Origin: Helicostylum pulchrum
Lineage: Eukaryota; Mucoromycota; Mucoromycetes; Mucorales; Mucoraceae
Length of the DNA stretch: 64,000 nt
NCBI GenBank assembly: GCA_025677825.1
Contig: JAIXMO010000038.1
Location: 124,001 to 188,000 of the forward strand
Direction: 5' to 3'
Below the pieces are notes generated by a model. That model was not told where the DNA came from. It saw only the letters and a program-made list of their open reading frames with translations, and did not search any database. Made by a program: the position numbers and the translations under genes. Shown piece after piece: positions 2,968-50,547 of this stretch (the first letter of the stretch is position 1; each line of letters starts with the position of its first letter).

Positions 2968-4676
2968 ATGGATTCTAACATAGCTTTTTATCGCGAAGAT
3001 GGAAGAGGAAATATATTTGACGATAAGGGCAATAATGCAGCAGCTTATGACGTAGCCCCTTCATTTCGTCTCAAAAAAGTAACTGATCTCAAGAATCTTA
3101 TTAAAAACAACACTTATTCGGAATTGCACTCAATCGAAGAGGTTGATGTTGACATGAAGGAAACAGCAGCCAAAAAAGAAAGAGAAAGTGAATACAACAT
3201 ATATACAGAAAAGGATTGGCTACTGTATCTTTATTTCGTTTTTCAAAAGGGTATGAAACACAAGAAAGCTGCGGAGGCTGCCAACGTCAATCAGCATACT
3301 GCACGAAAATGGAAGCAGAAGTATCTACAAAATCCTGAAGAATAAGTACCTCACAAGTTAACAAACCTCGTTTCTTCTCGCCCTGTGAGTCAACTAGAGG
3401 ACAGAAATAAAGATCACTTGACCAGTTTTTTCGATGAGAACAAAAGAGCAACTATTGAAGATGCTGTCAACAGTCTGACACAAAACTTCGCAGATCTTCA
3501 AATTAAAAAAACCAGGGTAACCGAGTTCATGAGAGATGAATGCAATCTCTCCATCAAAGTAATCTCTAGGCACCGGACCAAAAGAAATAGTCCTGTTTGT
3601 TAAATTCGGAATAAATGGAGAAGTAAATAAAGAGTAATAATTAACAGGTCCAAATAAGTATGTTTTCTTTATTGATTTAAAAGGGTCTATGCTTTTATAG
3701 TTTCTGACAGCTATGTCGGACAACGTAAAAAGCTATATGTTATAAAAATAACCTGGATCTAAACTACGCGTTGTAACCTCGGGCTCCCTTGTTGTAAGAA
3801 TGGTTGGAAGATATTTACCCCAACGATATATTTATAGCTATTCCAGCTTATCAATCTTTGTAAGGTCTTCTATCTCAATCCATTCTTATCGATCTGTATC
3901 CCTTGGTCACATCTTGAGCTATTTATTCTTAATCCAATCTCGTCCTGAAATCATTACCTAACAAATGTTTATCCGTATATAACACTGTTGTCATCGCAAA
4001 ACGGGCTGTTTGGGCGAATGAGTGGCAAGAGAAGGGGATGATTTACTCTCAAAACTGTGTGTTTTTAGATGAGTCGGGATTCGACATAAATATGACCCGT
4101 GGAAGAGCTTGGTCAGCTGTTGGTGAGCCTGCTGTCGTAGAAACGCCCTCAGGGAGAGCTGTATCTCATACAGTATTGGGAGCTATCTCTTCCGCAGGCG
4201 TATTAAATGTGTCCATGAGAGAACCGGGCAACTTAAAGAGAAGAAAGGTAGTTGGAGCGACTAAGCGTAAGGCACCAGGTGATAAAGTGTCAGTGCCTAA
4301 TGGAACTACTGGTGCCCACTATATGCACTTCATTGTTGACACAATGGATATTATGGACACATTTCCAGATATGCAAGGGTATCATATTGTTATGGACAAT
4401 GCTCCTATACATGTTCCTGCTTTGATTGATTCTTTAATCGAAAAACGCGGTTATGTTCCTGTTTACCTTCCCCCTTATTCGCCTGAGCTTAATCCTATTG
4501 AAGATTTTTGGGCTATTGTTAAGTCAAATGTTAAACGTCATGCATTGAAAGATACAGAAACTCTGATTAGTAGAATAATAGAGTCTTGTGAAGAAGTCCC
4601 TCTTCAGTATCTTAAAAATTGTGTTCAACATTCTGTAAACTTATTTGATAAGTGCTTGAATAAAGAACCTATTTGA
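2968..4676 (+). pseudogene. Disrupted DD34E transposase of the 2854-4761 element
   Basis: The frame starts at ATG 2968 (MDSNIAFYREDG), has a helix-turn-helix-like N-terminus (KAAEAANVNQHTARKWKQ), then a TAA at 3343-3345 where the relative at 35413-36750 has Trp. It continues in the same frame (LTNLVSSRPVSQLEDRNKDH) until the solo LTR at 3598. Beyond the LTR the frame resumes without shift (KRAVWANEWQEKGM) into the catalytic core: FLDESGFD, VMDNAPIH and ELNPIEDFW, with 34 residues between the second D and the E. It ends at TGA 4674-4676. Known family: Tc1/mariner and IS630 DDE transposases. Two lesions make it a pseudogene. Confidence 0.88.
3598..3984. mobile_element. Solo LTR (387 bp) nested in the transposase gene
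   Basis: The insert starts TGTTAAATTC and ends TATATAACA, giving the TGTTA/TAACA terminal inverted repeat typical of retrotransposon LTRs. It is flanked by a perfect 5-bp direct repeat CTGTT at 3593-3597 and 3985-3989. Removing 387 bp plus one CTGTT restores an uninterrupted transposase frame across the junction, which is independent support for the boundaries. No internal retrotransposon sequence is present, so this is a solo LTR left by LTR-LTR recombination. Copia versus Gypsy origin cannot be decided from the LTR alone. Confidence 0.88.
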
Positions 4677-35252: not shown

Positions 35253-36943
35253 TAGAGTCGTTCCAACGCCAAAAGGCGGCTTTTTTTTTATTATTCAAGG
35301 GCGGTTTTTTTCAACCCAAAAGGCGGCTTTCAATTTTTCAAATTTCGGTTTTTCACTTCAAAGTTCGTTTTATTATTTTAGAATCGAATAGCTATATCTT
35401 TATTAAAAAGCTTCATAAAGGGTCTCCGCGCAAGCAGATATCAAAGCAATTAACAGAGTGTTGAGCAAACGCATTCAAATGCTCGGGAGGGACGTTATTG
35501 CAAGCTTCAGCGATACGAGTGGCTAGATCTTCAGCATCTTTAAACGAACTTCGTTTTACCTTATTTTTGACAATGGACCAAAAATTCTCTATTGGGTTGA
35601 GCTCGGGAGAATAAGGAGGAAGATAGATGCTCCTGTAACCTCTCTCAGTAATCATTTCATTAATCCAGTCAGCAGTATGAATGGGCGCGTTGTCCATCAC
35701 AATATAATGGCCATTTAGTTCTAGATACAAATCCATTTCATCCATGCGCTTCTCGAGAAACCTAACGTAGTGGCCAGTTTCTGTACCCCCAGATTTTTTC
35801 TTTTTTTTCAGTAGGTGCTTTTCTTTTACGACCACTGTGAACAATTTTAATTCGCTTAGAGCGTTCTTCTTGAGGATTACGAAGTTCCATAGCAACAACA
35901 AACTTTGTTGATATGGCGCCTAATACAGTATGAGATACAGCTCTAGTGGTTGAAGTGGTCGTAATAGCGGGTGTTCCTTTTACAGAGCATCCGCTAGGAG
36001 GTCTCATGTTTATATCAAATGCAGACTCGTCTACGAATACACAGTTTTCTAAGTAATTCATATCAGTAGCAATCCACTTGATGACCCCATCTTTACGAGC
36101 TTGGATCTTATCTGAATTATTTCTAGCAACTGGCAAGCGTGTTAACTTCTTAAAAGAAAGGTTGCACTCATCCTTAAGGAAGTTGTAAACAGCACTTTTC
36201 TTCACAGTCAGATCAGAGAATTTTTGAGTGAGTGATTCCATTGCATCAAGCACTCGTGCTTGTGGCCAATAATCGTAAAACTCTAACAAGTGAACCTTAT
36301 GTCTTTCATCCAATTGTGGTTTTGGTCTATTGACCAAATTGGTTTGTTTCTCAAATATGTTCCAATCCTTATCCTCTTTGAGTTTCTTGGCCCATTTCTG
36401 TGCTGTTCTCTCGGCTATGCCGCCTGCTAAGCGCCCGGACTTAGCTGCGTTAAATAATTTAATACGGTTTAATACACAAAAGCGAGCTTTTGCTCGTTTG
36501 AGAATTTATGGTGAACTCTTTTCTGCTTCTTAACTATAGCTATGACTTCCTCCATATCAGCATCAAGGTTTCTCAAGGAATCTTCGGAGGAAACCCCTTC
36601 TTCCTCTTGCTTTCTACAATACTCTGTAATACGAGTCAGAGTTCTTAAGTGAAAAGGAGTAGCTTCCTCAACCCAGTCCATCGCATCGTTTCCTTCCTCA
36701 TCAACCAATTTTCCTTGGCCGTCTTCATAATAAAAGCGAGTAGTCATCATGTTTATTTGAAGAAAAAAAAACGAAGTTTAACAAAAAGAAAACCGAAATT
36801 TGAAAAATTGAAAGGCGCCTTTTGGGTTATCGATAACCGCCCTTGAATAAAAAAAAAGCCGGAATTGAAAAGCCGCCCTTTGGAAATATTTATTAACCGC
36901 CTTTTCATTTAAAAAGCCGCCTTTTGGCGTTGGAACGACTGTA
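35253..36943 (-). mobile_element. Second Tc1/mariner-type transposon, decayed
   Basis: TA-bounded (35253-35254 and 36942-36943), 1,691 bp. The terminal inverted repeats start AGTCGTTCCAACGCCAAAAG (first base C at the other end). The left arm is about 110 bp and the right arm about 165 bp; the difference is one extra repeat module. Each arm contains several copies of AAGGGCGG or AAAAGGCGGCTTT boxes, so the ends look like arrays of binding sites. The single encoded transposase runs on the minus strand. The element sits between the 3' ends of two convergent genes, a typical tolerated position. Its repeats differ from those of the 2854-4761 element although the transposases are related. Confidence 0.88.
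35413..36750 (-). pseudogene. Frameshifted DD34E transposase of the 35253-36943 element
   Basis: The frame opens at 36750 (MMTTRFYYEDGQGKLVDEEG), runs to KLAFVY, then shifts by one base near 36478 into NRIKLFNAAKSGRLAGGIAE (helix-turn-helix region). It continues through MVNRPKPQLDERHKVHLLEF and FVDESAFDIN, and shifts again in an A-rich tract near 35790-35800 into GHYIVMDNAPIH and LPPYSPELNPIENFW. The second Asp and the Glu are 34 residues apart (DD34E). It ends at 35413. Two single-base shifts make it non-functional as it stands; both are in or near slippery sequence, so assembly error is an alternative for the second. Confidence 0.85.
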
Positions 36944-37045
36944 CATATTAAAATCAAGTCTTTACCAAGGGCCAAAGATAGTCATCTAGTTTACATAAAA
37001 TAGATTGATTAGTTAGTGCCTAGGGGAGTTATTAATGTACTGTTA

Positions 37046-39416
37046 TTAGACCATACCAATAGTTTGAAGAGCAAGTAAATATTTAATGCTTAAAGGCCCC
37101 CTTCGTTCATTGAACTATAAAGCAAAATAAATTAAAACAAATAAAAATTACCCTTTAATAAATACTTGCCTTAAACAGAGATTCCATTATACTGAGTCTT
37201 TCCCTCTCTAAAGGTAACTCTGTAAATATAACTGGAGAATACAGGGTTTCGGTTAATATACATATGCATATATAAAAGAATATTTTAATTTACCCAAGTC
37301 AACTGAATGTAAAGATATATCTAAATCACTCATTTTCATATCTAAAAATATAAATTGAATAGAGTGACTTTGGTTGTATTCTTCACATATTGAATCCGAA
37401 GCATAGATATCATCCAAATGTGTAAGCTTCTTTTTTTTAGCTTTCAAATGCGCTTCTATCGCCTTAAAGACACTCTCGTTGTGATAAAAGACTGCGATCT
37501 TTGGCCTTTTATAAGTTTCAAATACATAGTCAAAGTATTGAATAATTTCTTCCTTCTTTACTTCTCCCGTCTTTTCATGCTACAATAGAGAAAAGAAGTG
37601 TTATTTTTATATATTGATGTATACAATAATAAATACTTGCCAGTATTTCCAGTTGTTCTTCGTCCACTGTTTCACAGTTATTACTAATAGAAATGATTTC
37701 TTCCACTTGACATTTTAACGCATTACTTTTTTTAATGGAAAATATCACCTCTTGACGATCAAAGTCAGGGAATTCAGGCTTTAGTTGTTCCGATTTTGGT
37801 GCGTACCAAACATTGGAGTCAAGCAAGTAGTTTAATTCTGGTTTATTGGATTCACCGTCGTAATTACAGCCAAATACAGTAGCTTTAGAGTCACAATATC
37901 GCTTTGCATACGATTCGAAATCGGTAAAGACTGTAGGTGCAATGGTCTGAACCAGTGGATAAAGACGCACAGGTTTACTATATCGTACTGAGTCAGACGT
38001 TAAAATGATCCTGTTATGTTTTTGTAATAATTGACTGATAAATTTGGATTCGCTTATCTGTGTGCAAAAAAAAAGAAAAAAAAAAAGTAAAAGTAAAAAA
38101 AACAAGGTTAGTTTTCTTCCACAAAAAAAAAAGAAAAAAAAAGAGAAGACAAAAAAAAGGAGGATGTTACTCATATTCTTCTCGAACTTACAGTCAAAGT
38201 TTTCCAATAATGACTATCTGAACACACTACAGTTTTAAAATCCTTGAGTTTTATTTCTCTTCGACGTTTAGAAGCATATCGATGGCTGGCAATATAAAAT
38301 TTGATATTGGATCCATGCTCTACATCGTCTTCTTGTTTCACTTTTACATCATCTTCATCATCACTTTCACTACTACTCTCATAATCTTCTTCATTTAATC
38401 TTATTTCCACCCTTTTTTTATAAGAAGCTCGAAACTTTGGTTGGCGAGCAGGCTTCTTTCGTTTCATCGGACCTTGCTTAAATGTTTCACGCGCAGGTGC
38501 CTTTGGATCCAGAACACAAATTTCATCATCACTTAGACCCAACCACTTTTTAATCTCATACTTCCAAGTATGACACAAGATATTGGGGCAAGTAACCAGC
38601 ACTGGCCATTCGTCTTGATAGACTTGTGTTAAAGCCAATACTTGGCCAATGGATCCAATCCCATTTTCATTACCAAATAACACTCTACCACACCTTTCCA
38701 ATCCAAACAACACACCGTTTCGTTGTACAGGTGTCAATAACCGAAACATGTCGCTTTCAACAAATTCGCTCCACTGGAATTCAATATCTGTCATCTCATT
38801 GGGATCATGCATACGTGCGTTGGATTCTAAAAGAGACATTTCAATAATAGAATCGAGAATGGCAGGTGGAATAGTTTCAATTTCAAGTTGTAAATTGGGG
38901 ATTTCGGTGGGCAAGGCAGAAATGGCTAAATTGTACATTGGCACCGTGGCCGGAATAGTCCACTGATCGTGTTCATCGCTCCATTTGATATTTTCGATCC
39001 CGGCAAATACAGGTTCCAAAGTCAGGTTGGCTTTGGTTTTGATACCAATTAATTCCTTTGATAAGATACTGAAGGCAACAGGAATTTTCGTCTTGGGAAT
39101 CGCTGATTGGGATTCTCGTAGTTCTAATTGAGTGCTAAAGTAAGACGGACGTGTGTTGAGTCGTGGTCTAATAGAGGAGTAGGCCTCTTCAGGATGTCTG
39201 ATAAATGGATGAGGTGATTCATCCCATGCGAAGAACCTACAGGTACCTGTTGGACACTAGAAAAAAAAAAAAAAAAAAAAGGCGTGTCAAAATAAAATAA
39301 AAAAGTATTGCTTGTAAAAAAGGAAAAGTTACCCTTTGATACCAACGACCCCTGTTTCTTCCAGGTGTTTTAACCTCTAAACTAAGAGGAACGTTATCAC
39401 AACGACATTTCCTCAT
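37046..39416 (-). CDS. zf-GRF + SMARCAL1/ZRANB3-like SNF2 protein with degenerate ATPase motifs
   Basis: Exons 39416-39333, 39256-38192, 38057-37641, 37579-37294, 37231-37170 and 37114-37046 give 660 aa. Residues 4-39 are a zf-GRF finger (C4, C6, C29, C34; NRGRWYQ, CRFFAWDE). The SNF2 part begins LLTPVQRNGVLFGLERCGR. Motif I reads GNENGIGSIG (223-232) where active enzymes have DEMGLGKT. Motif II reads CSDSHYW (373-379) in place of DESHF/DEAH. Motif III reads ILTSDS in place of LSGTP. The RYCDSK and EWPVLVTCP blocks match SMARCAL1-type proteins. The C-terminal VIFTEL ... FNERRGPLSIKYLLALQT occupies the motif V/VI position without the arginine-finger pattern. The third and fifth introns start GCAAGT (GC-AG). 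It probably binds nucleic acid but does not hydrolyse ATP (inference). Confidence 0.82.
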
Positions 39417-39569
39417 TGGTAGGTATTGTATATAAAAGGGGTAAAGGTAAAACAAGAAACATATTTTTCCCAGTTTTAGTTTTTTATATCATTTTTTAAG
39501 TCACGCAGATTTATCACTTTTCTTTCGTTTTTTATTTATTTTATTTTATTTTATAAAGTTATCTTGTTC
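39417..39569. promoter_or_regulatory. Shared divergent promoter (SNF2-like / RdRP)
   Basis: Only 153 bp separate the two start codons. The sequence is A/T-rich with TATAAAAGGG on one side, directed to the minus-strand gene, and TTTATAAAG near the plus-strand start. A single nucleosome-free region probably serves both genes. Confidence 0.5.
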
Positions 39570-42500
39570 ATGGAACAATACCAAGATAACAATTCGGGTA
39601 AGCGTGTACTTGCGATTATCTTGAAAGCTAGTTTACTTACATTGCTTTTCGTATGTAGAAGATTCCGATTACTGCTTTATTATAACAAACTTGACACCGA
39701 ATACTGATCGTGAAAAGTTATGGGAAATCTTTGGTGAATTTGGAACAATAAGACTTATTGAATTAAACGAAGAAACTTGGCATGCTGCAATTATTTACGC
39801 GTAACGACAACAGTTACTTTCAAAAGAAAGAAAGAAAGAAAAAAGTCGAATTAAAATGTAACACACTTTCTTTGTTTTAGGTTTAAACCGCTGGATCAGT
39901 TATTCTCTCAACTTATATATATTAACGACAGATTGATATCAATCAATCATATCCCTCTCTCAAAATACCTAAGCGTTGAAAGTTCACCAGTCTCCGTAAA
40001 TAAACTTGCATTAGGTGGATTATCTACACCTGAAGTTTTTATTGAAGAATGGATTACACAAGAATACGTTACATTTGACATCAATTTAAACCGAAACTAC
40101 GTGGATGTGTTTTTCGCTCATATGGATGGGTATTACCGTTTTCGTATTGAATACAGTCCAACCGACTTTAAAAACTCGGCCGTACTACAAAGACATGATG
40201 CTACTAATACTACTTCCTTAACCATTAGTGGTAAATACCCACCTCATTATTGGAAATCCAAAATTCCTATGCAAAAGTTGTCAGATACATATCACTTAAA
40301 ACATTGGGATCGAGTGGTTGAAATACCTTTGGATGAATTCTCTCGCGATATTATGAAACATAAAGCAGATAGTACCAGTAAAGATCCTGCAGTTCCCGGC
40401 GGCCGATTTCCAAATCACACAATCAAATTGAGTAATTGGACTGTTTATCGTCTCGAATTTGAGATGCCATTAAAGTCTAGTAAAAACACTGCTCATTTAT
40501 CTTTTGGCCCGAATAATGTGTCGCACGAAGCACTGGAGAGAAAAATCAATTTGGCAACTGCCTCACCGACCATTTTCACACCAGAACTTCAAGTACGTCG
40601 CGCTACAAAGAAAATCGATGTGGATGCTTATACTTTAAATATGTCATTTGAAGTCCGTTATATGATTGAACATGCTTTTAATTTAAAAATATTAAGAGAG
40701 TATAACGTTGAACCTGAATTCTTTAAAAAAATGCAGGAATTACCTTCACAGGTCTCTGTCTTGTTTTTGACTTTGTTGTCTGCTCCTCAACAGCGTGTTT
40801 ACAGTCCAGATACGATCATAAATCAAATATATTCTTTAACAAGAAATCATATTAACTATCAATCACCTATACCAAAAGGCCATGCTTTTTTGCGAAAATT
40901 AATCGTTACACCTACTTCCATCTATCCTTTACAACCTTCTATTGAACCCATGAATCATGTACAGTATCATTTTAGACAATATGCTGATAGGTTTTTATTG
41001 GTACAGTTTACCGACGAAGATTTGGAACCGATATTACCTCCTAATTCTGATGATAATGCCGATACTCAAAATATAAAGATATATGATCGTATCTATCAAG
41101 TATTACGTAAAGGAGTTAAAATTGCAGGACGAACCTATGAATTCTTAGGTACATCTATTGATGATATTCGCTCACATCAGTGCTGGTTTTTTGCTAGAAC
41201 AAACGAAATTGATAGAGTTTATATCTTAAATTGGATGGGTGATTTTAGAGAAATCAGTAAAGTTTCTACGTTTACCATTTGTTCAGGACAGGGCTTTGCT
41301 CCGAGATTAACAGATTTAACACTTGCACCGAACGAAATTGAAGAAGTCGAAGATTATGAATACAATGGTCATATATTTACAACAGACTGCGGTAAAATGT
41401 CGCCGCAAATAGCAAGAGAAATCGCAAAGAAATTAGATTTGGATTTTACACCAAGTGTTGTTAAATTTAATTTAGCTGGTGCTAAAGGTATTCTGATGAT
41501 ATCCAATTTCTTGACGAAACGCAAAGTTCAATTACGAGATACTCAAGTGAAGTTTAATAGCACTAGGTTAACATTGGAAGTCATCAAGGTATCGAAACCC
41601 AATAAAGTCTATCTGGACAGAAAAATCATCATCTTGTTATCTTCCTTGGGTATTCCAAACTACGTATTTATAGATCTGTCAAATGAAACCATGACTCAAT
41701 ACAAGCGAAACATGTTTACAAAAGATGAAATCAGTTTGGACTCCATGTGTGGTTTCTATTCAAACGGTATTATGCATGATTTTCAAAATATTCTTAATGC
41801 TGGCTTTTTAGATATGAATGATCCTTATATAAGTAATTTGGCGTCTGCGTACCAAAATAATGTCTTGCAAGATATTCGTAATGATTGTAAATTACATGTA
41901 GAGCAAGGTGTCAGAGTGTTTGCTATTATGGATGAGACTGGGGTTTTAGGCCCAACTGAGATTTTTCTGCAAATCACTGACAAGTCTGGGCTAGCTGTCA
42001 ATAGACGTATTATTGAAGGGCCCTGTTTAGTCCTTAGAGATTCCTCTTTCTTTCCCAGCGATATGAGAGTAGTGAATGCAGTGAATGAACGCAAGCTTCG
42101 ACATTATACTAACGTCCTGGTCTACTCTTCCGTTGAAGCTAGAGATATTCCAAGTGCATGCTCAAATGATGATCCAGCCGATGATAACTTTACGTAAGAA
42201 TTTTTATAAATCATTATAATAACACTGGTACTAAAAAAAAATAACGTTTATAGTGTCATTTGGGACCCAAAACTTATACCCAATACACAATCTTTAGCAC
42301 CCAGAAACTATGTCACCACTTACACACCAAACGACTTGCCCAAGATTTCATTCAAAGAAATCGCTAAATATTTCACAACCTATATATCTAAAGATCGTCT
42401 GGATGTGTTAAAGAAAGCTTATATAGCTATATCTGATAGACATAAAGAAGGTGTTTTTCACGGTGATTGTATATATCTTTCGCAACAACTTTCGAGAGCT

Positions 42501-43497
42501 CTTGGTAAGATATAGATAGATATTCTTGTAATATTTCTAATCCCAATTTTTTTTTAAAAAAATAGATTTTGCAAAAACCGGTTTATACGCGACAATATAT
42601 AGTGAATTTCATGAATATCCATTCCCCGATTTTATGGAAGAAAACAAACTATGCACTTACACATCGAAAAAGCCATCTGGACAAATATATCGCATCAGTT
42701 CGCAAATTGTAGGTAAACAGTACGTGGCAAATTACTGTTCGTATGATCCACGTCTATTTACAGACGACATGTACAAGTATATTGCCGACGCAAGAAAAGT
42801 CAAGGCCAAATACGACCACAGCTTACGTCTTGTATTAGGACGCTACACTGTTCGAACTGAAATCGAATTTATCTCGGGTCATATCTTGCATTGGCCAAAG
42901 TATCTGTCCATGAAGGATAAACCTCGTTTTATTGAAAGAATCAGGGCGGCTTATGTTAAGTTTAAAAATGATTGGAGGCAAGAGTTTGAAGCAGAGTTTT
43001 TAAACTATTGTGGTCAAGATTTACAGAGTTTAATAGAAGCAAAAGCAGCTGCATGGTATTACGTCACGTATCATCCGTCTGAATACAAGAGTGATGTTAC
43101 GTATAACTCTACAATGGAAAGATATATGAGTTTTCCTTGGGTTTTAGATGATTATATTGTGTCCATTGCTATTATCAATTCTACTAGACCAAGAGAAGAA
43201 CGATTCTTCCAAGCGGTTTCTGCTGAAATGATTAAGAATGCTGTAAAAGAGACAGCCGAATTCTTGTTTGATTCCGAGGACGAAGATAATGATAGTGACG
43301 ACGATAGTGAAGATGAAAGTAGTTCTGAAAGTGAACAAGAAGGCCAACTAGCAGACGTGTTAGAAGATAATACTGAGAACTATACTATTGAGCAAGAACA
43401 TATTCAAGATCAAGGAAGTGGAAATCGTTATAACACTGGTACTCAAGAAGAGGAAGAACTTGTCATAAGTGTAAAACTATCTGATCTGATTATGTAA
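39570..43497 (+). CDS. Cellular RNA-dependent RNA polymerase with altered catalytic motif
   Basis: Exons 39570-39597, 39659-39800, 39881-42193, 42254-42504 and 42566-43497 give 1,221 aa. An N-terminal RRM-like fold (CFIITNLTPNTDREKLWEIF, GTIRLIEL) precedes the RdRP region, seen as FTTDCGKMSPQIAREIAKKL, KGILMIS, RVFAIMDETGVL, EGPCLVLRDS, MRVVNAV, then CSNDDPADDNFTVIWDPKLI and SRALDFAKTG. Active cellular RdRPs have a DxDGD motif here; this protein has D821-P-A-D-D825, so the middle Asp and the Gly are replaced. The tail has an acidic Ser/Asp/Glu stretch. Known family: makes dsRNA from single-stranded templates in RNA silencing. The changed motif suggests lost or altered catalysis. No frameshift is present, so it looks under selection. 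Confidence 0.9.
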
Positions 43498-44496: not shown

Positions 44497-46308
44497 TTAA
44501 ACAGCAGACTTTTCGGCTTCGTATTCAACAACATCAACTTCCTTGACATCACGACCGATAGCATCTTCCTCGACATCAGTAGCATCATTCTTTCCGTGAC
44601 AATAAAAGAAAAGGGGAGCGCAAATACCCATAGCGATAGAGATACCAGCGTACATCCACTTCAATTTAGGGTTATAGGCAACAGATACAAGAGCGAAACC
44701 AAGGATGGAACCGAAACAGTTCATGAACAAGAAAACGGCCATAACAAGAGACTTCATCTTCTCGGGAGCCTTCTTGTAAGCATATTCAAGACCAGTAATA
44801 GAAGCAAAGATTTCTGAGATAGCAATCAAGACATAAGCAGGTACAATTAAAGCACCAGAAACATCGTTCTTTTGGGTACCACTGGGGTCCTCATAATAAG
44901 GACCTCTGCTATAGATAAGAGCTTGGATACCAGCAGCGTAAGCCATAGCAAGTGCAGCAAATACGAAACCCCAAGTAATACGCATGATGGGACGGAAATG
45001 GAATCCCATCTTACGGAAACCAGGATATACGAAACGATCCATAATAGGAATGAAAAGAACTAAAGTCAAAGGATTGATATTTTGCATAATATCGTTGGGA
45101 ACACCACCAGTTTGCATAGTAGCAGCCATGGAAACCATGTTACTGGTCATTTGAGAGTAACAAAGCCAGTAAATGGGATACCAACAGAAAACAATGCAGG
45201 CCTTAAAAGTACGACGAAGTTCATCAATAAAGATATCATCCCAAGTGGCAAGAGCAGCAAGTTCTTGAGGCAAGTTTGAAGGCTTACAACCTTCGAGAGT
45301 ATGCTTGAAAGAAAGTTTAATAATCTTGTATACTTCAACAAAGATGGAACCACGAGGAGGATTTCTGACGTAAATTTTCTTACCAGCCCATACAATCAAG
45401 ATGGCGGGAATAAAGACAAGTGTGGGTAAAAGATAGGCGGCCCAGAAACCAACTTGTTGTTCAAGAACGATAGTAGTGATAGCGGCGAGAGAACCAATAT
45501 TAATACCCCAATAAAACATATTGAAAAGCTTTTGGTATGTAGCTTGAGGAGAAACAATAACACGGTAAGAACCTTCAGTAGTGACAGCGGAAGCATGAGG
45601 ATTGGAAACAACATGGTCACCTTCATCAGCAGCATACTTGGAAGAGACCTTGGGAGTAATTGTACGAACAAAAGGCTTATTATTACCGTATTGCTCTGCA
45701 ACAAGAGGTGCAACATTGGCTTTAATACCACCTGCAGCAAGACCAATAATAATAATAGAAACAATAAAACCGGGGAAAGTGGCACCAGATGCAATTGCAG
45801 CAGGAGTAGCAGTAGCAGTCAAGATAATTAAACCAAACAAATAGACACCAGAGAAAATAAGAATAGTGTTGTATTTACCCAAGTATTGATCTGCAATAAT
45901 AGCACCAATAACGGGAGTAACATAACACCAGAATTGGAAAAAAGTATTCAAAGCAGTAGCGGTCTGTTGACCTTTACCCATTGCACCAGGCAATTCGGCA
46001 GGATCTAAAAACACATGACTGCATCAGAACCAGCTTTGTGTTATTCTTTTTATTTACTTACAGCTTTCAGGGGCTTCATTCTGAATATAGTTTTGGAAAG
46101 GACCAGTTAAACCATAGTAAGTGAATCTCTCACAGAATTCAATAAGAATAACCAAGTAAGCAGCTTTTGGAATATCATCAGCTACCTCCTTTAAATTGAT
46201 CCAGTCTTCATCAGTGGGTGCAATACGAATTTCTCCATCCACAGAGACATCGATTTCATCGTTGTGTTTATGAACACTACTTTCATACTTGGTATCTTTT
46301 TCGTCCAT
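44497..46308 (-). CDS. ptr2: POT/PTR2-family peptide transporter, copy A
   Basis: Exons 46308-46062 and 46004-44497 give 584 aa. The ExxER motif is at IEFCERFTYYG, and the family signature FYWGINIGSLAA follows. About 12 hydrophobic segments are visible, with a loop after transmembrane segment 9-10 typical of fungal Ptr2. Known role: proton-coupled uptake of di- and tripeptides across the plasma membrane. The acidic, Lys-poor cytosolic tail ends VVEYEAEKSAV. It is the downstream member of a tandem pair with 48718-50547. Exon 1 length (247 nt), exon 2 length (1,508 nt) and the phase-1 intron position are identical in the two copies. GTAAGT donor and TTTTAG acceptor. Confidence 0.95.
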
Positions 46309-48717: not shown

Positions 48718-50547
48718 TTAGAAGGCGGGCTTAGCCTCAGCTTCGTATTCATCAACGACTTCAGTATGACGGGATCTACCAATTGCATCTTCTGCGATAT
48801 CACTCTTATCATTCTTTCCGTGACAGAAATAGAAGAGTGGTGCACATATTCCCATTGCAATAGAAATACCAGCATACATCCATAAGAGTTTAGGATCAAC
48901 GGCCACAGATACCAGAGTAAACCCGAGAATAGAACCGAAACAGTTCATGAACAAAAAAACGGCCATAACAAGAGACTTCATCTTCTCTGGAGCCTTTCTG
49001 TAAGCATATTCAAGACCTGTAATGGAAGCAAAAATTTCGGAAATGGCAATGAAAATATAAGCAGGAACAATCAAACCAGCTGAAACATCATTCTTTCCGT
49101 TTCCGGTGGGATATTCGTAGTAAGGCCCTTGGCTATAGATATAGGCTTGAATGCCCGCAGCGTAACCCATGGCAATAGCAGCAAAGAAAAAACCACAAGT
49201 GATACGAGCCATAGGACCAAAGTGAATACCAAGACGACGAAGACCAGGGTAGAAGAATTTATCCATAATGGGAATAACAATAACCAAAGTTAAGGGGTTG
49301 ATGTTTTGCATAATATCGTTAGGAACATCACCAGTTTGCATTGTGGCGGTCATGGATACCATGTTATTAGTCATTTGTGAGTAACAAAGCCAGTAAATTG
49401 GGTACCAACAGAAAACGACACAAGCTCTGAAAGTACGGCGAAGTTCATCAATAAAGACATCGTCCCATGTAGCATTCTTTGCGACCTCTGGATGCTCTTT
49501 TTGTAAAACGGATGGCTTACATCCTTCGAGACCATATTTGAAAGAAAGACGAATGACCTTGAATACTTCCAAGAAAATAGAACCACGAGGAGGGTTACGA
49601 ACATAAAGTTTCTTACCGGCGAAAACAATTAAAATACCAGGAATAAAAACAAGTGTTGGTAAAAGATAGGCTGGCCAGAAACCAAAATTCTTTTCGAGGA
49701 TAACTGTAACCACAGCAGCAAGTGAACCGCAATTAATACCCCAGTAGAACATGTTGAAAAGCTTTTGGTAAGTAGCTTGAGGAGTAACAATGACACGGAC
49801 ATCACCTTTATTGGCAACGCTGTTATGAACTGGGAGATCACCTTCATCTGCAGCAAACTTGGAAGATAGCTTGGGCTTAATAGTTTTAACAAAAGGCTTA
49901 GTGTTTTTATATTGCTCAGCAACAAGAGGAGAAACATTAGCCTTAATACCACCAGTACCAAGACCAATAATAATAATAGCCACAATAAAACCGGGGAAGG
50001 TGGCACCCGAAGCAATAGCAGATGGAATGGATGTCAATGTCAAAACGATCAAACCAACAAAATAAATACAGGCAAAAATAAGAATAGTCTTATATTTACC
50101 CCAGTATTGATCTGCAATAACAGCACCAATTATAGGGGTGACATAGCACCAGAACTGAAAAAAGGTGGTTAATGCAGTAGCAGTTTGTTGACCTTTGCCC
50201 ATTGCACCAGGCAATTCTGCAGGGTCTAAATAGAAGAAGTTTAGCTAAAATGATCGTGGGAAACTAGTGTGGGAAAACTTAATATCTTTGTGTTACTTAC
50301 AGCTTGGCGGGTTTGGATTTTGAATATAGTTTTGGAAAGGACCGGTTAAACCATAGTAAGTAAATCTTTCACAAAATTCTACGAGGATGACAAGGTAGGC
50401 AGCCTTAGGAATACTGTCTGATACCTCTCTTAAAGTTTTCCAGTCTTCTTCTGTAGGTTCGATACGAATTTCACCGTCTTCATCAATCTCGAAACCTTGA
50501 TCACTTTGTTGTAATATAACGGCATCGTCTTTTTCTTTAATATCCAT
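48718..50547 (-). CDS. ptr2: POT/PTR2-family peptide transporter, copy B
   Basis: Exons 50547-50301 and 50225-48718 give 584 aa. The start is taken at MDIKEKDDAV, the position equivalent to copy A; an in-frame upstream Met (50622) would add 25 residues (MISYKKNPYP...) that have no counterpart. VEFCERFTYYG (ExxER) and FYWGINCGSLAA are intact. It differs from copy A mainly in the N-terminus, in the loop around EGCKPSVLQKEHPEVAKNAT and in the tail (EVVDEYEAEAKPAF). Same substrate class; tandem duplicates of Ptr2 often diverge in peptide preference or regulation, which is inference here. Confidence 0.95.

Follow-up and report, generated by a model that had tools for sequence, protein, structure and literature searches.

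An RdRP3-like gene and its divergent SNF2-like neighbour in Helicostylum pulchrum: two probable pseudo-enzymes of the Mucorales

A stretch of 64,000 nucleotides from the fungus Helicostylum pulchrum (contig JAIXMO010000038.1 of assembly GCA_025677825.1, positions 124,001 to 188,000 of the forward strand), here called the window, carries a pair of genes that encode an RNA-dependent RNA polymerase (RdRP) and an SNF2-like protein, each altered at its catalytic motifs. The question that this locus raises is what two such enzymes, both apparently disarmed, do side by side. A first-pass annotation, made from the letters alone, proposed an undescribed RNA-silencing module, and our results suggest that this is partly right. 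The RdRP is, on the comparisons given below, very probably the orthologue of Mucor RdRP3, which is already known genetically as a component of the non-canonical RNA interference pathway (NCRIP), while the degenerate active site of the RdRP and the pseudo-ATPase neighbour are the new points and are apparently unreported. We lean towards a reading in which RdRP3 serves as a pseudo-polymerase scaffold of NCRIP, with the neighbour as a candidate pseudo-ATPase partner.

The start codons lie at 39416 on the minus strand and at 39570 on the plus strand, so that the genes are divergent with 153 bases between them, just as first annotated. The far end of the SNF2-like gene had been put at 37046 because the last intron was read through; a seventh exon (36985-36954) codes for a C-terminus ..DDYLWPLVKT that matches protein P0001 of Thamnidium elegans, with the DDYLWP end recurring in other relatives, and moves the end of the gene to 36954. 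Introns 3 and 5 have GC-AG splice pairs. The database model of the Mucor flavus protein P0002 shows the same read-through at its end. All searches with the SNF2-like protein used a 660-residue model that predates the addition of exon 7. The features of the pair, in window coordinates, are as follows.

36954..39416, minus strand: SNF2-like gene, 667 residues, seven exons; modelled from splice sites and agreement with Thamnidium elegans P0001
39416-39333, 39256-38192, 38057-37641, 37579-37294, 37231-37170, 37114-37057 and 36985-36954, minus strand: exons of the SNF2-like gene
38210..38221, minus strand: altered Walker B (motif II) SDSH, residues 374-377
38648..38674, minus strand: altered Walker A GNENGIGSI, residues 223-231
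39215..39410, minus strand: GRF-type zinc finger, residues 3-42, split by intron 1; PF06839 at 22.2 bits, below the cut-off of 25.9
39417..39569, no strand: divergent intergenic stretch, 153 bases between both start codons
39570..43497, plus strand: RdRP3-like gene, 1221 residues; exons 39570-39597, 39659-39800, 39881-42193, 42254-42504 and 42566-43497
39682..39765, plus strand: RRM-like stretch of the RdRP-like protein, residues 18-45; PF00076 at 20.4 bits, just below the cut-off of 20.7
40905..42693, plus strand: RdRP domain, residues 399-954; PF05183 at 441 bits
41463..41489, plus strand: altered first-barrel motif KFNLAGAKG, residues 585-593; intact homologues have Q.R...KG
42165..42185, plus strand: altered catalytic loop NDDPADD, residues 819-825; intact homologues have GGDLDGD

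Where active RdRPs carry DLDGD, the window RdRP has DPADD, which departs from the DbDGD pattern; the remaining two full RdRP genes of this genome have intact loops (DYDGD and DLDGD). The altered loop is a property of a whole clade, comprising 22 rows in our alignment (14 named database proteins, seven unnamed partial ones and the window protein), set off by a long stem (1.04) with support of 100/100. Its GGDLDGD loop is changed in every row, both leading glycines being lost in all 22 and the inner glycine in 21, where E, D, K, Q, I or L stands instead, and the hydrophobic position varies. At least one of the three catalytic aspartates is missing in six rows (the window, Mycotypha, Rhizopus arrhizus, R. 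stolonifer, Sporodiniella and Pilobolus), losses that on our reading of the tree would need several separate events. The ten homologues outside the clade have GGDLDGD, GGDYDGD or, in Phycomyces, GGSLGGD. The last is Phycomyces blakesleeanus P0040 (SGGSLGGDN), in which two of the three aspartates are likewise lost.

The change extends to the first barrel, whose motif has lost its glutamine in 21 of the 22 rows and its arginine in 20. Among 59 columns that are invariant in nine intact-loop homologues, 15 have gone from 90% or more of the clade rows, and these include R416, R419, R524, D558, G559, Q585 and R587 (window numbering). The lost columns make up 9 of 17 in the three stretches that surround the loop and two motifs of the first barrel, compared with 6 of 42 elsewhere (Fisher p 0.006, for stretches picked after looking). 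Two residues of the QDE-1 polymerase, Q736 and K743, are described as invariant in the active cleft, and by our own mapping the window positions Q585 and K592 have the same spacing; the latter position is lysine in 10 clade rows and arginine in eight. The fold appears to be retained, since the predicted structure of a Choanephora member of the clade (P0022, pLDDT 76) matches plant RDR2 and QDE-1, maize RDR2 being its best match (TM-score by target 0.74). Losses of this kind in the alignment are the pattern of a putative pseudo-enzyme that still binds something, and we think it probable that the RdRP lacks processive polymerase activity.

Which RdRP this is follows from several comparisons. Its nearest named relative is that of Thamnidium elegans (Mucorales), at 90% identity over the full length, and its clade, which stands apart from the RdRP2-like protein of this genome and from Umbelopsis, Hesseltinella and Phycomyces, contains an RdRP of Mucor lusitanicus CBS 277.49 (P0021). 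Thamnidium and Pilobolus are Mucorales by taxonomy look-up, and we take the other named genera of the clade to be so as well. Three RdRPs are reported from M. lusitanicus, and the published RdRP3 has 1210 residues, a domain spanning 407-944 and identities of 30% to RdRP2 and 17% to RdRP1 (PMC5384783). As predicted, P0021 has 1147 residues and is without two internal stretches (33 and 28 residues) that are present in P0019; with both counted it would have about 1208, and its Pfam domain would end near 943. The window protein is identical to the RdRP2-like and RdRP1-like proteins of its own genome in 30.2% and 16.8% of alignment columns, or 33.9% and 25.4% of aligned pairs, figures that depend on a counting rule which may differ from the published one, on paralogues joined by eye from open reading frames, and on our own assignment of the names RdRP1-like and RdRP2-like. 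Clade, length, domain end and identities thus all fit, and M. lusitanicus RdRP3 is probably the same gene.

Protein identifiers were of no help as a pointer to RdRP3, because the JGI numbers conflict between papers: 80729 is assigned to R3B2 in one of PMC4395119 and PMC5384783 and to rdrp3 in the other, and PMC7377519 has 159162 for rdrp3. The database model of the RdRP3-like protein of M. bainieri (P0020) is without an N-terminal stretch that P0019 has. Elsewhere in the H. pulchrum genome, at locus L037 (2935-4686 and 4777-8496), the RdRP2-like gene is followed in tandem by an apparent truncated copy that has its N- and C-terminal parts and no catalytic middle, possibly an assembly error.

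The SNF2-like protein matches PF00176 at 42.5 bits (cut-off 24.9), and its identity to the Thamnidium protein is 78% over the full length. Canonical SNF2 proteins carry the motifs GLGKT, DE.H and Q..R.HR.GQ; here GLGKT has become GIGSI, the DE.H box has become SDSH, and the motif VI region is without Q..R.HR.GQ. Sixteen relatives were found first and seven more, all partial, by profile search, the named ones coming from Mucor, Thamnidium, Parasitella, Blakeslea, Choanephora and Rhizopus. Across the 17 aligned members the Walker A lysine is gone from its place in all (a lysine stands one residue on in six), and the Walker B glutamate is lost in all, with aspartate instead in seven, while the Walker B aspartate is retained in 10. 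The arginine fingers of motif VI are absent from all 11 members that reach the region. The first annotation's claim that both proteins are degenerate at their catalytic motifs is therefore upheld, and it extends to their relatives. What replaces the Walker A motif is itself conserved: G223, N224, E225, G227 and G229 are identical in all 17 members, giving G-N-E-[NH]-G-[IVL]-G, and keeping the site in every member suggests a use other than ATP hydrolysis. The alignment has 22 invariant columns, which say little about the C-terminal half because letters from all 17 members are present in only 177 columns (residues 161-383).

A GRF finger (PF06839) is matched at E ≤ 1 by 12 of the 17 members, the best at 1.5e-9, the window protein itself being below threshold; its PDB match is NEIL3, with E 0.022 for the single protein and 2.4e-6 for the profile. 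Structure matches of P0001, obtained with a model of low confidence, are headed by SNF2 remodellers and XPB-type helicases. As a control we scanned other SNF2 loci of this genome (30 fetched out of 35 matches, several of them overlapping) for intact motifs only. All 30 held an intact DE[AGS][HQ] box and 13 of them DEMGLGKT, which introns may have cut in the rest. The window gene itself escaped the PF00176 search of the whole genome. By eye the protein resembled SMARCAL1/ZRANB3, a likeness that we treat as unconfirmed: the HARP domain (PF07443) had no match in the window protein, in the genome, or among the 25 of 28 families listed for the 17 members, and at E ≤ 0.01 the genome gave no further matching locus. 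To judge by these alignments, the neighbour is an undescribed family of GRF-finger SNF2-like proteins, and the window member very probably has no ATPase activity.

How might these two proteins be used? NCRIP is a non-canonical RNA interference pathway that degrades mRNA independently of Dicer, with RdRP3 as a component, and RnhA, a helicase of UvrD/NF-X1 type, also acts in it (PMC5384783). Deletion of rdrp3 in M. lusitanicus raises both tested NCRIP target mRNAs and raises the rate of epimutation, an RdRP2-dependent process, leaving transgene silencing unaffected (PMC5384783). Reported roles of the pathway in Mucorales are the control of virulence traits and transposons and of how often drug-resistant epimutation arises. 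Its RNase, R3B2, has substitutions in its catalytic signature yet cuts single-stranded RNA in vitro. The products of NCRIP are sense-only and Dicer-independent, and what its RdRPs do is described as incompletely understood (PMC11943222). Because the products are of this kind, a pseudo-polymerase that binds transcripts but does not copy them fits the pathway well. In the reading to which we lean, RdRP3 would retain the polymerase fold minus the conserved active-site architecture and, as an RNA-binding scaffold, would deliver target transcripts, uncopied, to R3B2 and to the other RdRPs. The GRF-finger SNF2-fold neighbour would not be expected to hydrolyse ATP and may be a nucleic-acid-binding partner of RdRP3. 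The gene pair may share its regulation and the products may be physical partners; whether the two proteins work together at all we regard as evenly poised.

Several observations weigh against this account. All three aspartates are present in 16 of the 22 clade rows, that of M. lusitanicus P0021 (DPDED) included, so that residual activity of RdRP3 is possible and the case for inactivity stops short of proof. The protein has also diverged broadly, and the active-site losses have to be weighed against that background: of 174 columns invariant in seven intact homologues, 42 have gone from 90% or more of the clade rows, mostly away from the active site. The window RdRP gene has four introns, compared with five in rdrp3 of another species (PMC5384783). 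R3B2 is absent from the PF00035 matches in this genome, the sole match reading as an mL44/MRPL3-like mitochondrial ribosomal RNase III-like protein, which leaves an intact NCRIP undemonstrated in this genome. The structural model of the SNF2-like protein is of low confidence (pLDDT 57, pTM 0.36), with TM-scores of 0.2-0.4 and large root-mean-square deviations for its matches.

The linkage of the two genes in relatives, inferred from contigs of the same size and from locus tags in the protein-search tables, belongs on both sides of the balance. Both genes are on equal-size contigs in two Parasitella records (209772; 109877), in M. bainieri (23386, consecutive tags MBANPS3_007276 and _007275) and in Thamnidium (135585), and an apparent shared contig is thus found in four of five judgeable assemblies (four assemblies other than ours, from three species). 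Choanephora, Rhizopus stolonifer and M. lusitanicus/circinelloides were left out of the count because their records differ. Counting against close linkage, the Thamnidium tags (INT48_000781 and _000758) are 23 apart; the Blakeslea trispora contigs differ (245028 and 220711), so that the genes appear unlinked there if both come from one assembly; and four of five is a raw count. Adjacency is for these reasons either not universal or not shown: outside the window the tags indicate it in M. bainieri only, and the head-to-head orientation is observed in the window only. The protein searches returned the RdRP and no SNF2-like partner for Cokeromyces, Mycotypha, Pilobolus, Sporodiniella, Rhizopus arrhizus and R. 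microsporus, and the SNF2-like protein and no RdRP for M. flavus, M. mucedo, M. hiemalis and M. velutinosus. Such absences mean little because these searches were restricted by shared words and length. In collections of prokaryote and virus contigs 56 and 27 matches came up by pattern, none of them a relative, as is to be expected of such collections.

There are other ways of reading these results. A bolder form of our own, which we offer tentatively and as falling short of an even chance, is a dedicated Mucorales RNA-decay module of disarmed enzymes, in which pseudo-RdRP3 and the GRF pseudo-SNF2 protein, expressed from one short divergent promoter, would act as a nucleic-acid clamp that selects mRNAs for R3B2 without double-stranded RNA.

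We consider it unlikely, though a serious contender, that common descent alone accounts for the adjacency, with the SNF2-like protein acting in chromatin or DNA repair and RdRP3 independently of it. GRF fingers and SNF2 domains are common among DNA repair proteins, NEIL3 is the PDB match of the finger, and the genes appear unlinked in Blakeslea, all of which speaks for this reading. It accords less well with the equal-size contigs in four other assemblies of three species and the consecutive tags in M. bainieri, or with the loss of catalytic motifs in both proteins at once when the other SNF2 loci of the genome keep their DE.[HQ] box.

Less likely again is that RdRP3 still polymerises RNA through an unusual active site, making short antisense stretches that mark mRNAs for R3B2. 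This is what the NCRIP authors suggest, the literature model having the RdRPs synthesise short complementary strands that mark targets (PMC5384783, PMC11943222), and the complete triad of metal-binding aspartates in most rows, that of M. lusitanicus among them, is in keeping with it. Such an enzyme would, however, have to work without the inner glycine (lost in 21 of 22 rows), both preceding glycines (22), the first-barrel glutamine and arginine (21 and 20) and, in six rows, a triad aspartate.

The first-pass annotation had also allowed that the complex might antagonise the active RdRPs of the genome, and a degenerate RdRP could in principle be a dominant-negative decoy that binds their substrates and blocks amplification of small interfering RNAs. 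The rise in RdRP2-dependent epimutation on loss of rdrp3 would suit a decoy; the same loss also raises the tested NCRIP target mRNAs and does not change transgene-induced silencing (PMC5384783). Because RdRP3 thus acts positively in mRNA degradation, pure antagonism is not the simplest reading, and we think the decoy improbable. That both genes are decaying pseudogenes, as loss of catalytic motifs might suggest, is strongly disfavoured by their open multi-exon frames, their full-length identities to Thamnidium and the unchanged GNE.G.G in all 17 SNF2-like members.

The scaffold reading has partial counterparts elsewhere. Plant RDR2 is linked with Pol IV and with CLSY, an SNF2-family protein. 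The RdRP fold is common to plant RDR2 and the window RdRP clade, the best PDB matches being RDR2 of maize and Arabidopsis, whereas the aligned RDR2 chains carry GGDLDGD, unlike the window RdRP. Helicase-type proteins (Hrr1, SAD-3 and, in NCRIP, RnhA) occur in fungal RdRP pathways, RnhA being a UvrD/NF-X1-type helicase whereas the window neighbour is a GRF-SNF2 protein. R3B2 is a further NCRIP protein whose catalytic signature carries substitutions, differing in that it keeps nuclease activity on single-stranded RNA. A further likeness is RDR3 of Paramecium tetraurelia, a divergent RdRP short of conserved residues that its authors consider possibly dead and that is nevertheless required for silencing (PMC4937312); it acts in transgene-induced chromatin silencing, and the accessible text mentions no SNF2-like neighbour. 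For M. lusitanicus RdRP3 the accessible literature describes a conserved RdRP domain and mentions neither an altered active site nor an SNF2-like neighbour. We saw neither point reported in the open-access literature that our searches covered, a body of text that does not include the papers in which Mucor RdRP1 and RdRP2 were first described.

The surroundings of the pair are mixed. The assembly around the window totals 32.2 Mb in 168 contigs. On the 3' side of the SNF2-like gene lies a DDE_3 transposase open reading frame (35413-35919, minus strand), overlapped by frames reaching up to 36777 on the same strand that had no Pfam match or were left out of the scan, and a second DDE_3 frame is found at 3933-4673 (plus strand). 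Past the 3' end of the RdRP gene are two frames for POT-family (PTR2) transporters with similar starts (44497-46023 and 48721-50244, minus strand).

Should RdRP3 prove unable to copy RNA, the view that each of the three RdRPs marks its targets with short complementary strands would have to be revised, and the sense-only, Dicer-independent products of NCRIP would gain a simple reading. The Mucorales would then supply a fungal case alongside Paramecium RDR3 of an RdRP, proposed to be possibly dead, that takes part in silencing. The SNF2-like family, for its part, is a concrete new gene for functional study.

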